From Sneathiella aquimaris (GTDB lineage Bacteria; Pseudomonadota; Alphaproteobacteria; Sneathiellales; Sneathiellaceae): 64,000 nucleotides of DNA. The stretch's first letter is position 1, and every line of letters begins with the position of its first letter. A program made the position numbers and the translations under genes. The notes beneath the pieces were generated by a model that worked only from the letters and a program-made list of their open reading frames with translations, was not told the DNA's origin and did not search any database. The stretch is from contig NZ_CP112881.1 of assembly GCF_026409565.1 (NCBI RefSeq), positions 744,001-808,000 of the forward strand, given 5' to 3'. Positions 26,650 through 30,384 of the stretch are shown here, in pieces.

Positions 26650-26829
26650 ATGCCGTCTGTTATCAAATCTTTGGTAAGCGTTTTTGCTTTAATTGCTTTT
26701 TCTGTTCTTGTATCTGCTTGCTCGCCCGAAGTTGGCAGTAAAGAATGGTGCGACGCGATGAAAGAAAAGCCAAAAGGTGACTGGTCAACAAATGAGTTGG
26801 CTGAGTTCACAAAGAACTGCGTCCTTTAA
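26650..26829 (+). CDS. Small DUF3012 lipoprotein
   Basis: 59 aa from the ATG at 26650, preceded by GAGGAGG. The signal peptide ends at a lipobox LVSAC (Cys24). The mature 36 residues, CSPEVGSKEWC...KGDWSTNELAEF, match DUF3012, a tiny conserved lipoprotein of unknown role. Three Cys remain in the mature protein (24, 34 and near the C-terminus). Its last ten codons are the left boundary of the tandem duplication: a decayed copy of them reappears at 28447. Confidence 0.85.
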   Translation: MPSVIKSLVSVFALIAFSVLVSACSPEVGSKEWCDAMKEKPKGDWSTNELAEFTKNCVL

Positions 26830-26877
26830 GAGGCTTCGCGGAATTCCAGCAGGTCGGTCACCATGTTTCAATAGAGA

Positions 26878-26954
26878 TGGTGACCCCGACAGGACTCGAA
26901 CCTGTTACCCCCAGATTAGGAATCTGATGCTCTATCCTGATGAGCTACGGGGCC
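26878..26954 (-). tRNA. tRNA-Arg(CCT)
   Basis: A full cloverleaf reads on the minus strand: acceptor GGCCCCG/CGGGGTC, D stem GCTC/GAGC, anticodon loop TTCCTAA between TCAGA and TCTGG (anticodon CCT, reading AGG), T arm ACAGG-TTCGAGT-CCTGT, and an encoded CCA. It is 77 nt. A degenerate copy lies 1642 bp downstream. Confidence 0.97.
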
Positions 26955-27290
26955 ACTGCCTATACATATTTGGAACGGCCCTGAAAACGCAAGCGCTTTT
27001 ATTCGCCGCGTATATGAAATGTAGCGTTGACCTAATAAACGGCTGAGCTGCGGACCTTTTGGAGTCCATTTGGCGACCAAAATGTACAGATTTGTAATGT
27101 TGCCGAAAAGGCACATCCGAAAGTTCAGATTATTTGCTGCTTGGTACGTGAGTTCATCAACACTTTTATTTGATGCCGGATCGGAAGTAAAAGTAGGAAA
27201 AGCACGTTCTTCTTGATGCGCGATACGGGTCTCTTGGCCTTTCCTTGAACACACTCAGCGTCTGCTGTGTCGGTGGAGATAAAGATAAAG
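26955..27290. other. Leader and promoter region of porin 1
   Basis: 336 bp without a supported gene. It aligns along its whole length with the region before porin 2 but with many substitutions. Two blocks stand out as conserved: around 27101-27144 and the 27-nt block at 27167-27193. Promoter and 5' untranslated leader are the likely content. Confidence 0.6.
27167..27193 (+). promoter_or_regulatory. Conserved 27-nt block upstream of porin 1
   Basis: TATTTGATGCCGGATCGGAAG followed by TAAAAG is identical at 28806-28832 upstream of porin 2, while the flanking sequence differs at many positions. It ends about 97 nt before the start codon (95 nt in copy 2). It could be a regulator site, promoter or leader RNA element. 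Confidence 0.5.
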
Positions 27291-28343
27291 ATGAAAAAAA
27301 TCGTATTGGGTACGACAGCCTTGCTTGCTGCGACAGCCCTGACTACAGGTTCCGCGAATGCGGCAGACAAAATCAAACTAAGCCTGGGTGGTTACCTCCA
27401 GACGTCTTTCATAGCGGCAGACTATGATACAGACACAAACCAGCTTCCAACTGACATTCGTCACGAAGGTGAAGTGCACTTCACTGGTTCGACAGTTCTG
27501 GACAACGGTTTGAAGTTTGGTGTGAACATTCAGCTTGAAGCGCGCGCAACAGGCGATCAGGTTGACGAAACTTTCATGTTTGTTGAAGGCGCCTTCGGTC
27601 GCGTCAATATCGGTTCAGAAAACAGCGCGGCATATTTGATGCACTTTGCATCTCCAGAACCAGTTGTAGCATGGGGGCTTAACGATCCAACTGCGGAAGC
27701 CGGCGGATTTACAACACTATCAACAGCCCCCACTGAAGTTAGTGACGCGGATAAAATCACTTATTTCACACCTCGTTTCTCTGGTTTCCAGATCGGTGCG
27801 TCATACACACCTGATGGGGACGAAGAAACGGGGACATCGGGCGGTAACAGCCCGTACACACCAATTCAGGATGAAGGCGTTGAAGACGAAGCCTATTCTG
27901 TTGGCGTAAACTACATCAACACTTTCAACAGTGTTTCTGTTAAGGCGTCTCTTGGTTATGACATCATTACATCTTCAACAATTGATGATCTGGAAGAGAT
28001 TTCAGCGGGTGTTCAGGTTGGTTTCGCAGGCTTTAAAGTCGGTGGTGCTTACAAATTCACAGACAATGACGCAGACACACAAGACCGTGAACGTCATGAC
28101 TGGAACCTGGGTGTGACTTATGGTCAGGGCCCTTGGACAGTTGGTGTTCAGTATGCACGCGTAGAGCTTGATAACGCAGCAGACGGTGAGCTTGATGCGG
28201 TTGTCGTCGGTGGTAAATACATCCTCGGCCCAGGTATCACAGCGTTCGGTGGTGTTCAGTATTTCAAAGGCGAAGACGCTCTTGTTGGTACAGAAGGCGA
28301 CGAAGCTACGATCTTCTTCGTAGGGACAGCACTGTCCTTCTAA
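27291..28343 (+). CDS. Porin, copy 1
   Basis: 350 aa from the ATG at 27291 (MKKIVLGTT), with a signal peptide cleaved after ANA near residue 23. The mature protein starts ADKIKLSLGGYLQTSF and ends FVGTALSF with a C-terminal Phe, the outer-membrane beta-barrel signature. It belongs to the Rhodobacter-type trimeric porins and allows diffusion of small solutes. Loop regions are acidic. It is nearly identical to porin 2, with three amino acid differences seen: Thr/Asn and Leu/Pro near residues 130-143 and Gly/Ala in TPDGDEE. A duplicated ATAAAG hexamer puts the GGAG ribosome binding site 12 nt from the ATG, against 6 nt in copy 2. Confidence 0.93.
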   Translation: MKKIVLGTTALLAATALTTGSANAADKIKLSLGGYLQTSFIAADYDTDTNQLPTDIRHEGEVHFTGSTVLDNGLKFGVNIQLEARATGDQVDETFMFVEGAFGRVNIGSENSAAYLMHFASPEPVVAWGLNDPTAEAGGFTTLSTAPTEVSDADKITYFTPRFSGFQIGASYTPDGDEETGTSGGNSPYTPIQDEGVEDEAYSVGVNYINTFNSVSVKASLGYDIITSSTIDDLEEISAGVQVGFAGFKVGGAYKFTDNDADTQDRERHDWNLGVTYGQGPWTVGVQYARVELDNAADGELDAVVVGGKYILGPGITAFGGVQYFKGEDALVGTEGDEATIFFVGTALSF

Positions 28344-28362
28344 TATCGCTTGGTATAACGAT

Positions 28363-28395
28363 GAAAGGGGTGGAGTTAAGTCTACCCCTTTTTTG
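28363..28395 (+). terminator. Intrinsic terminator after porin 1
   Basis: AAAGGGGT, loop, ACCCC followed by TTTTTT. The same structure follows porin 2. Confidence 0.85.
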
Positions 28396-28409
28396 TGACT
28401 ACTGGGTTT

Positions 28410-28446
28410 CTAGAATTTTTTAGCCTGGACCAAATAGGCGTTGATG
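28410..28446 (-). pseudogene. 3' remnant of the ParB-like gene
   Basis: On the minus strand it encodes INAYLVQAKKF and a stop (TAG here, TAA in the intact gene at 30047). Only the last 12 codons exist; the similarity ends abruptly at the duplication junction. Confidence 0.8.
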
Positions 28447-28476
28447 TCTGAAGTCTCAAAGAACAGCATCCTTTCA
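28447..28476 (+). pseudogene. 3' remnant of the DUF3012 gene
   Basis: Reads SEVSKNSILS in the frame aligned to the intact AEFTKNCVL-stop at 26800-26829. The stop codon has been lost, and only the tail is present. Confidence 0.65.
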
Positions 28477-28519
28477 GGGAAGGTTCGATCAGGTTGGTAC
28501 TCATGTTTGTTAAAAGAGA

Positions 28520-28595
28520 TGGTGACCTTGGCAGGACGCGTACCTGCTACCCCCAAATTAGGTTCTGATGCTCTATCCTGATGAACGAAGGGTCA
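28520..28595 (-). pseudogene. tRNA-Arg pseudogene
   Basis: Aligns along its whole length with tRNA-Arg(CCT) at 26878. The acceptor stem has several mismatches (TGACCCT against CAAGGTC), the anticodon loop is one base short (ACCTAA), and the T loop reads TACGCGT in place of TTCGAGT, losing the T54-A58 pair. It is unlikely to yield a working tRNA, although CCT and CCA remain. Confidence 0.88.
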
Positions 28596-28805
28596 CAATC
28601 CATACATTTTTGGAGCCGCCTTAGAAACGCAACTGCTGTTCTTTACGGGTCGCATGAAATGCTCCGTTGACCCAAAAATGGCTGAGTTCGGCGCTTGTTG
28701 GCGTCTATTTGAGCGACTGGAATGTCTGAATTTGTACTGTTGCTGAAAAGGCACATCTGAAAGATCAGATTTTTGCTGCTTAGCACGTGTGACCATCATC
28801 ACTTC

Positions 28806-28832
28806 TATTTGATGCCGGATCGGAAGTAAAAG
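28806..28832 (+). promoter_or_regulatory. Conserved 27-nt block upstream of porin 2
   Basis: Identical to 27167-27193, within an otherwise diverged upstream region, ending 95 nt before the porin 2 start codon. Confidence 0.5.
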
Positions 28833-28927
28833 AAGGAGCAGCATGATTCTTCTCGTCGTGCCGTAAGGGCCTCTGTGGCCTTCCCTCAAACACAGTTTAG
28901 CTCCCGCAGGTGGGAGTGGAGATAAAG

Positions 28928-29980
28928 ATGAAAAAAATCGTATTGGGTACGACAGCCTTGCTTGCTGCGACAGCCCTGACTACAGGTTCCGCGAATGCGG
29001 CAGACAAAATCAAACTAAGCCTGGGTGGTTACCTCCAGACGTCTTTCATAGCGGCAGACTATGATACAGACACAAACCAGCTTCCAACTGACATTCGTCA
29101 CGAAGGTGAAGTGCACTTCACTGGTTCGACAGTTCTGGACAACGGTTTGAAGTTTGGTGTGAACATTCAGCTTGAAGCGCGCGCAACAGGCGATCAGGTT
29201 GACGAAACTTTCATGTTTGTTGAAGGCGCCTTCGGTCGCGTCAATATCGGTTCAGAAAACAGCGCGGCATATTTGATGCACTTTGCATCTCCAGAACCAG
29301 TTGTAGCATGGGGTCTTAACGATCCAAATGCGGAAGCCGGCGGATTTACAACACCATCAACAGCCCCAACTGAAGTTAGTGACGCGGATAAAATCACTTA
29401 TTTCACACCTCGTTTCTCTGGTTTCCAGATCGGTGCGTCATATACACCTGATGCGGACGAAGAAACGGGTACATCTGGCGGTAACAGCCCGTACACACCA
29501 ATTCAGGATGAAGGCGTTGAAGACGAAGCCTATTCTGTTGGCGTAAACTACATCAACACTTTCAACAGTGTTTCTGTTAAGGCGTCTCTTGGTTATGACA
29601 TCATCACATCTTCAACAATTGATGATCTGGAAGAGATTTCAGCGGGTGTTCAGGTTGGTTTCGCAGGCTTTAAAGTCGGTGGTGCTTACAAATTCACAGA
29701 CAATGACGCAGACACACAAGACCGTGAACGTCATGACTGGAACCTGGGTGTGACTTATGGTCAGGGCCCTTGGACAGTTGGTGTTCAGTATGCACGCGTA
29801 GAACTTGATAACGCAGCAGACGGTGAGCTTGATGCGGTTGTCGTCGGTGGTAAATACATCCTCGGCCCAGGTATCACAGCGTTCGGTGGTGTTCAGTATT
29901 TCAAAGGCGAAGACGCTCTTGTTGGTACAGAAGGCGACGAAGCTACGATCTTCTTCGTAGGGACAGCACTGTCCTTCTAA
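28928..29980 (+). CDS. Porin, copy 2
   Basis: 350 aa from the ATG at 28928, with GGAG six nucleotides upstream, a better spacing than in copy 1. Signal peptide, barrel start and the terminal Phe are as in porin 1, and the proteins differ at three positions. By eye the two coding sequences differ at about ten bases, eight of them between positions equivalent to 27677 and 27839 of copy 1. The gene ends with the same style of terminator. Same family and role as porin 1: passive uptake across the outer membrane. The short divergence in one extracellular-loop-like stretch could alter permeability slightly. Confidence 0.93.
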   Translation: MKKIVLGTTALLAATALTTGSANAADKIKLSLGGYLQTSFIAADYDTDTNQLPTDIRHEGEVHFTGSTVLDNGLKFGVNIQLEARATGDQVDETFMFVEGAFGRVNIGSENSAAYLMHFASPEPVVAWGLNDPNAEAGGFTTPSTAPTEVSDADKITYFTPRFSGFQIGASYTPDADEETGTSGGNSPYTPIQDEGVEDEAYSVGVNYINTFNSVSVKASLGYDIITSSTIDDLEEISAGVQVGFAGFKVGGAYKFTDNDADTQDRERHDWNLGVTYGQGPWTVGVQYARVELDNAADGELDAVVVGGKYILGPGITAFGGVQYFKGEDALVGTEGDEATIFFVGTALSF

Positions 29981-29999
29981 TACCACTTGGTATAACGAT

Positions 30000-30031
30000 G
30001 AAAGGGGTGGACGTAAGTCTACCCCTTTTTT
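30000..30031 (+). terminator. Intrinsic terminator after porin 2
   Basis: AAAGGGGT, loop, ACCCCTTTTTT; counterpart of the porin 1 terminator. Confidence 0.85.
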
Positions 30032-30046
30032 GTGACTACTGGGTTT

Positions 30047-30292
30047 TTAGAATTTTTTAGCCTGGACCAAATAGGCGTTGATGGTTTCTTCCCCTAATAA
30101 ATGGCAGGCCTGCAGTCGATGATATCCCTCGACAAGGACATACCGGTCTTTGCCTTGCCGAACCTGAATAGGTGTTTTCTGGCCATTTTCAAGAATGTCT
30201 TCCGCCAAGACTTCCACTTTGCTTTCATCGAGCAATTTTTTTCGAGCTGTCGGCACATATATTTTTTCGATGGGGAGGGTATGAAATTTCAC
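30047..30292 (-). CDS. Stand-alone ParB/Srx-like nuclease-fold protein
   Basis: 81 aa from a GTG at 30292, selected because AAAGGA lies 8 nt upstream; a TTG at 30313 would add 7 residues. The sequence follows the ParB N-terminal domain pattern: LPIEKIYVP, LAEDILENGQKTPIQVRQ and the core VEGYHRLQACHLLGEETI. It lacks the helix-turn-helix and the dimer domain of chromosome-partition ParB, so it is a single-domain member. Such proteins have been linked to CTP binding or regulation, but no role is known here. Its 3' end is the right boundary of the tandem duplication. Confidence 0.75.
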   Translation of the reverse strand: MKFHTLPIEKIYVPTARKKLLDESKVEVLAEDILENGQKTPIQVRQGKDRYVLVEGYHRLQACHLLGEETINAYLVQAKKF

Positions 30293-30384
30293 TGGCGTGA
30301 TCCTTTGATGCAAAATGCATTATCAGGATACTAGCGGAAGCGGTCGAAATCACCCACGCATTTTTGATGTTCTTACGGCAAAGA

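Follow-up and report, generated by a model that had tools for sequence, protein, structure and literature searches.

The stretch analysed here (the window) corresponds to positions 744001-808000 (64,000 nucleotides) of the one-contig 3.94-Mb genome of Sneathiella aquimaris. About 1.64 kb are duplicated in tandem within it (26806-28447 and 28448-30084); the two units are direct repeats that each include a tRNA-Arg sequence and a porin gene. The two porin genes (copy 1 and copy 2) are almost identical, whereas the regions located upstream of them are widely diverged, and this discrepancy is the subject of the present report. The limits of the units were set by eye from their alignment. tRNAs were detected with ARAGORN and Rfam, porins were assigned to a family with Pfam and the structure of copy 2 was modelled with AlphaFold2. 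The features are listed according to their position in the window.

26806-28447, + strand: unit 1 of the duplication (from alignment); runs from the 3′ end of a small upstream gene through tRNA-Arg, an intergenic region and porin copy 1 to a hairpin and tail.
26878-26954, − strand: intact tRNA-Arg(CCT) of unit 1 (ARAGORN; Rfam, 62.1 bits).
27291-28343, + strand: porin copy 1, 350 amino acids, PF13609 (Porin_4); leader and ribosome binding site unlike those of copy 2 and of relatives.
27677-27839, + strand: patch including eight of the ten coding differences between the copies; codons 129-183, loops L3 and L4.
28344-28447, + strand: downstream flank of copy 1; terminator-type hairpin (28367-28388; fold, −18.6 kcal/mol) and T run.
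28448-30084, + strand: unit 2 of the duplication (from alignment); same order as unit 1, tRNA decayed.
28520-28596, − strand: decayed remnant of the duplicated tRNA-Arg, unit 2; 12 of 76 aligned sites differ, plus gaps.
28928-29980, + strand: porin copy 2, 350 amino acids, PF13609; leader and ribosome binding site of the type seen in relatives.
29981-30084, + strand: downstream flank of copy 2; hairpin (30004-30025; fold, −21.8 kcal/mol), then T run.

The duplicated unit begins close to the end of the small upstream gene, includes the tRNA-Arg(CCT) on the minus strand and ends within the last codons of a gene encoding a ParB_N-domain protein. The Porin_4 scores of the two copies (185.3 and 186.0 bits) are far above the curated cut-off (27). 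The model of copy 2 (mean predicted local distance difference test score, 87) includes 16 strands between residues 29 and 349 and a long inter-strand segment (111-152) corresponding to loop L3; its best match in the Protein Data Bank is Omp32 (2fgq; E, 1.4e-15). According to this model, copy 2 is a 16-stranded porin with a long loop L3. Loop numbers are taken from the strand order of the model. A pattern scan for promoters and terminators reported nothing, the hairpins that follow the porins included, and is not relied on.

The tRNA remnant of unit 2 was detected neither by ARAGORN nor by Rfam at E values up to 1. Among the tRNAs detected in the genome, the Arg(CCT) anticodon occurs once, in unit 1. 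An anticodon could be given for 38 of the 39 tRNA matches; the weakest has no corresponding ARAGORN gene and thus no anticodon. The genome also includes an Arg(TCT) tRNA gene. Besides the intact tRNA, Rfam reported six weak matches, all under their gathering scores.

The alignment of the two porin genes shows ten mismatches (27677, 27691, 27718, 27731, 27806, 27817, 27833, 27839, 27968 and 28166) and no gap over 1053 coding bases. Eight of them lie in 27677-27839; at least eight of ten mismatches fell within any 163-bp window in 90 of 200,000 random placements. The successive segments thus differ at 0 of 386, 8 of 163 and 2 of 504 coding bases, and at 6 of the 104 bases (5.8%) located 3′ of the porins. 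The synonymous divergence (dS) between the copies is 0.028 (7 differences for 253 sites) and the nonsynonymous divergence (dN) is 0.0038 (3 for 797). The upstream regions (26805-27270 and 28448-28907) differ at 109 of 451 aligned sites (24.2%; Kimura two-parameter distance [K2P], 0.298), with 11 gap events; K2P reaches 0.314 between the tRNA and the ribosome binding site. Copy-to-copy synonymous divergence is therefore about one tenth of the upstream divergence (0.30). In 100-bp windows, upstream identity is 0.63-0.84 when gaps are counted and 0.76-0.86 when they are ignored, and it rises abruptly around the ribosome binding site and start codon, over about 20 bases. A first-pass annotation of this DNA, made by eye, had given about ten coding differences, eight of them in 27677-27839, an upstream identity of roughly 70-75%, a change at the ribosome binding site and a downstream stretch of about 100 bp that stays similar. 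The alignment and the sliding windows bear out each of these values, 70-75% being a fair middle value of the upstream windows.

That annotation had also argued that a single duplication age cannot give both levels of divergence, and had proposed to compare synonymous sites with flanks. The comparison (dS of 0.028 versus K2P of 0.298) agrees with the argument: the synonymous divergence of the porins is not similar to that of the flanks. At the flank rate, 61 synonymous differences are expected and 7 are seen (Poisson P, about 1e-18). The downstream flank, which is untranslated, is also too similar (6 of 104 versus 109 of 451 upstream; P, 7e-6). Calibration relies on other genomes of the genus, with one genome per species (G, genome; L, locus). 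Between the porin and that of the nearest relative, G004, the proportion of differing synonymous sites (pS) is 0.71, with 0.71-0.87 for neighbouring genes. Porin dS is 1.10 for G003/G008 (neighbours, 0.32-0.83), 0.87 and 0.48 for the two porins of G017/G021 (neighbours, 0.80-2.5) and 0.96 and 0.61 for those of G017/G003 (neighbours, 0.88 and up). Synonymous porin sites are therefore not frozen, with dS of 0.48-1.10 across these species pairs, and since they change readily in most pairs (G013/G015 being an exception), purifying selection alone is insufficient. If G013/G015, the most constrained pair, is taken as the yardstick, about 26 synonymous differences are still expected for the 7 seen (P, 9e-6). 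The copies are more alike at silent sites than the age of the duplication allows (0.028 versus 0.298), which is the mark of concerted evolution; G013/G015 is cautionary in this respect. Of the two causes that the first-pass annotation had left side by side, conversion remains as the best reading and strong purifying selection is unlikely as the sole cause (pS of 0.71 to G004; 26 differences expected versus 7).

The porin gene adjoins the same thiolase gene in six genomes (G005, G009, G011, G014, G018 and G023) and is one open reading frame (ORF) away from it in G004, i.e. in seven genomes. This thiolase-linked porin is referred to as the A locus and other porin loci as B loci. In G004, G009 and G011, as in the window, the opposite side of the porin is occupied by an OmpA-like gene and tRNA-Arg(CCT); in G009 an extra ORF separates the tRNA from the porin. 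A pair of porins also lies near the thiolase in G006, at a contig start; they are mutually diverged and spaced otherwise. When the upstream region of unit 2 was searched against 24 genomes of the genus, 17 of which are at least 90% complete, it matched twice solely in the genome of the window; in the others, 20 matched the tRNA and little beyond, and 3 gave no match. A second genome with the duplication was thus not found among them. In the alignment, the two upstream regions are far closer to one another than to that of G004, and the duplication would therefore be younger than this species split: on these comparisons it is young relative to the split from G004, yet old enough for 30% change. 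In a tree of 41 porins, copies 1 and 2 cluster by genome; because the duplication is found in one genome only, the tree is uninformative on conversion in this pair.

The control regions of the two copies differ. In copy 2, both the leader and the ribosome binding site are similar to their counterparts in G004 and G011. In copy 1, the GGGAG stretch is partly lost and six additional bases precede the start. An inverted repeat (dyad) is intact upstream of copy 2 only.

27149-27164, + strand: copy 1 counterpart of the dyad; 3 of 10 half-site bases changed (compared by eye).
28788-28803, + strand: intact dyad TGTGACCATCATCACT, 140 bp 5′ of the start of copy 2; sole exact match in the genome to TGTGAYNNNNRTCACT.

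The best dyad score in the upstream region of copy 1 is not above those of shuffled sequences. The dyad (TGTGAY-N4-RTCACT) is located 121-145 bp 5′ of the start of copy 2 and of the A-locus porins of G004, G009, G011, G014 and G023, and is also found in the A-locus upstream contig of G018. It is therefore present in 7 of the 10 A-locus regions examined, those of copy 1, G005 and G006 being without it. It also precedes the first porin in both the G021 pair and the G057 array. Its positions in other loci are L054:10193-10208, L056:6194-6209, L060:7388-7403, L063:7294-7309, L071:7684-7699, L085:7761-7776 and L073:7495-7510. None of the seven B-locus stretches examined (L053, L055, L057, L059, L061, L064 and L070) includes it; a looser score gives one good dyad 5′ of the B-locus porin of G023. 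The single match in the whole 3.94-Mb genome compares with 0.03 expected in the window. The pattern was derived from the same upstream regions in which it was counted, so that the evidence is limited to how rare it is elsewhere and to the fact that copy 1 has lost it. Its form presumably resembles that of CRP/FNR-type sites, and it is a possible operator for a porin-specific regulator. Copy 2 keeps an ancestral-looking control region (dyad, leader and ribosome binding site). Decay is complementary, since the tRNA is intact only in unit 1 and the dyad only in unit 2: unit 1 keeps the tRNA, unit 2 the control region of the porin.

The B-locus porins of many species share another feature, a strongly conserved leader (TTCTCTAGCTT...GAGCAGAGGGGAGACAAAATG) located just 5′ of the start (e.g. 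L053 and L059). It includes a possible hairpin ahead of the ribosome binding site; single-sequence folds give no clear excess of stability. Forty leaders folded against shuffled sequences gave a mean z of −0.6, with 13 of 40 below −1, and no claim of a structured 5′ leader is made.

Three of the coding differences change an amino acid (copy 1/copy 2): two are in the long loop L3 (T/N134 and L/P143) and one is where L4 begins (G/A176). N134 is nearly invariant among 31 aligned porins. Five of the eight patch changes are synonymous. At six sites the codon of copy 1 is rare in these porins (GGG three times, CCC, TCG and CTA); across three porins, GGT is used 86 times and GGG 5 times. With G004 as the reference, copy 2 has the common base at seven of eight informative sites, including all six in the patch; two sites are uninformative. 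At 27806 and 27817 the base of copy 1 is found in many more-distant relatives, and polarity is uncertain there. The first-pass annotation had viewed the patch as possibly a loop-coding region that escaped conversion. Its location in loops is confirmed (L3 and L4); the symmetrical old divergence that this view implies is not, since copy 2 has the base common with G004 at six of six patch sites (two being uncertain) and the patch therefore looks like a change on the side of copy 1.

The downstream flank differs from the synonymous sites outside the patch (about 215, an estimate; P, 0.016). These differing segment divergences suit at least two copying rounds, probably an older one that covered the gene and its downstream flank, followed by a recent one from which both patch and flank were left out.

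Re-copying of the coding sequence between the two porins after the duplication (gene conversion) is the best explanation of these data and is considered quite probable. The 1.64-kb duplication (tRNA-Arg and porin) would have arisen after the split from the nearest relative among the genomes searched. The upstream halves have diverged to a distance of 0.30 and one tRNA has decayed, while the coding halves remain 99% identical, synonymous sites included. RecA-type homologous recombination would have copied the sequence of one porin over the other, with at least one recent event and probably two or more in all, because the patch and the downstream flank seem to be of greater age than the remainder. 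The drop in homology near the start codon would account for the conversion tracts ending there. The donor would be mainly copy 2, whose dyad, leader and ribosome binding site look ancestral and which has most of the bases common with G004. Copy 1, which lies next to the only intact tRNA-Arg(CCT) found and has a changed control region, would drift between conversion rounds.

Several observations weigh against this scheme. In G013/G015, porin dS is 0.138 versus 0.375 for the upstream flank and 0.68-1.15 for three neighbours, so that a porin coding sequence can lag behind its flank without any tandem copy. The second porins of G017/G021 (0.48) and G017/G003 (0.61) also fall below their neighbours. 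A run test on 329 polymorphic third positions in 105 porin pairs gave no within-genome excess (best P, 0.11). A second genome with the duplication, which could provide a direct demonstration, was found in none of the 24 searched. The polarity counts are small (7 of 8; two-sided binomial P, 0.07), and the two-round history and the direction of donation draw on few sites. For the G013/G015 porins (L078:7040-8128 and L076:1292-2380), interspecies exchange or strong codon selection are two readings. A rival explanation is a single old duplication without any conversion, whose coding part was held back by selection on the protein and on codon usage. The porin is indeed strongly codon-biased (GGT, 86; GGG, 5); G013/G015 and the two second porins are in line with it. 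It is nevertheless highly improbable: even the G013/G015 yardstick predicts 26 synonymous differences instead of 7, the other porin comparisons reach 0.48-1.10 (with neighbours from 0.32 upward), and the downstream flank, which is untranslated, is too similar as well.

Homogenisation could also result from unequal crossing over, i.e. an expansion to three units followed by a contraction. Direct repeats are prone to unequal crossing over, those of the window are 1.64 kb apart and the end product can equal that of conversion. This route needs two crossovers placed so as to keep the old order of the upstream regions, while conversion needs one event per tract, and it is regarded as improbable. 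A further alternative concerns the patch only: rather than being a stretch skipped by the last conversion, 27677-27839 of copy 1 may have been imported by recombination from another strain or have been subjected to positive selection in L3 and L4. All six informative patch changes are on the side of copy 1 and the three amino-acid differences (134, 143 and 176) are within these loops, which makes this a genuine though minority possibility. No donor of the patch is seen: the third paralogue, which was tried as a source and rejected, has the base of copy 1 at only two of the eight sites, that of copy 2 at five and neither at one. Furthermore, five of the eight changes are synonymous, several of them to rare codons, and relaxed drift fits better than selection for a new loop.

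Other porin pairs of the genus do not behave uniformly. In the 41-porin tree, a group with a support of 100 unites the first copies of G003, G017, G021 and G008. The second copies of G003, G017 and G021 fall outside it, and their own grouping is weak (23). The old pairs of these genomes are thus not homogenised. Copies cluster by genome in G012 (96), G020 (100), G024 (100) and G057, in the dispersed pair of G014 (97) and, weakly, in G023 (60). Where it was computed for these pairs, synonymous divergence is high (G020, 1.51; G014, 0.61; G023, 0.58) and recent whole-gene copying is therefore not indicated. When A and B loci are compared in sliding windows, an own-genome excess is seen for G014 and G023 and, limited to single windows, for G000 and G011. 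General conversion between A and B loci across the genus was considered and rejected, as the run test is without within-genome excess despite these flags.

G014 provides a case of its own. Its thiolase-linked porin and a porin located 459 kb away (L070:7676-8875 and L071:7816-9024) are identical over 140 of 140 bases (codons 230-275), with flanks of 81% and 76% identity; this tract lies in columns outside the run test. In the between-genome control (120 of 802 pairs), identical stretches reach 41 bases at most. Among 15 other within-genome pairs only that of G014 is far above this control, the second-highest value within a genome being 55. The tract, which would correspond to loop L5 according to the alignment with the copy 2 model, appears to be an independent case of segmental conversion and implies that porin paralogues of the genus exchange segments, at least once across a distance. 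In G018, contigs C17/C37 and C20/C29 (L085, L067, L068 and L052) break within both porin genes, which would be expected in a draft where paralogues have common sequence.

Selection may also keep one pore under two control regions. Conversion would unite the coding parts while the promoters specialise, the L3/L4 differences would give a slightly different pore for other conditions, and the porin paralogues of the genus would be a pool exchanging loop segments, as for the 140-bp tract of G014. This extension is speculative and rather unlikely.

The gene that overlaps the far end of the duplication lies on the other strand.

30047-30313, − strand: small ParB_N-domain gene, 3′ end within the duplicated unit.

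Relatives of this gene are located away from porin matches (on another contig or at about 400 kb or more) in 13 of the 14 other genomes of the genus that have one; G019 has a relative and no porin match. Given this placement elsewhere, the gene may have been relocated next to the porins in S. aquimaris.

The locus adds a new, well-dated case to those known for gene conversion. The unit has its own clock: the age of the duplication can be read from the flanks and the dying tRNA, and that of the last copying from the synonymous sites, while the regulatory dyad points to the copy that retains the old control. It is thus a clean test case for how conversion stops at gene borders while control regions diverge and the protein stays constant. 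It also calls for caution with porin trees in this genus: since paralogues copy coding sequence from one another, such trees can be misleading. In a literature search by titles and abstract beginnings, no paper on this locus was found among the matches listed; the one that contains both 'Sneathiella' and 'porin' concerns another genus according to its title and the start of its abstract.

The tuf copies of Salmonella lie far apart. Conversion between tufA and tufB is bounded by the gene ends (PMC5485169). The porins studied here are likewise duplicate genes with conversion between copies; unlike tuf, they form a tandem pair whose control regions are unequal and which was found in a single genome. 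The E. coli rRNA operons undergo intragenomic conversion (8.6e-6 per operon per donor per generation; PMC8022953), which similarly keeps repeats alike; seven operons of RNA genes are concerned there, and two protein genes here. In long-lasting concerted evolution of prokaryotes, paralogues of one species are more alike than orthologues, recurrently over hundreds of millions of years (PMC6053082), while the present pair is confined to one genome among those searched. The omp2a and omp2b genes of Brucella are, as here, two linked porins of an alphaproteobacterium. Their variation arises mainly by conversion and affects loop-coding segments, only omp2b has been shown to be expressed, and omp2 is completely homogenised in some genotypes (PMC7050475). 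In S. aquimaris, the loss of the dyad and the altered ribosome binding site of copy 1 bear only indirectly on whether one copy is silent. The omp2 genes have opposite directions and are about 830 bp apart (PMC7050475), whereas both porins of S. aquimaris are on the + strand, as direct copies that were duplicated together with a tRNA.

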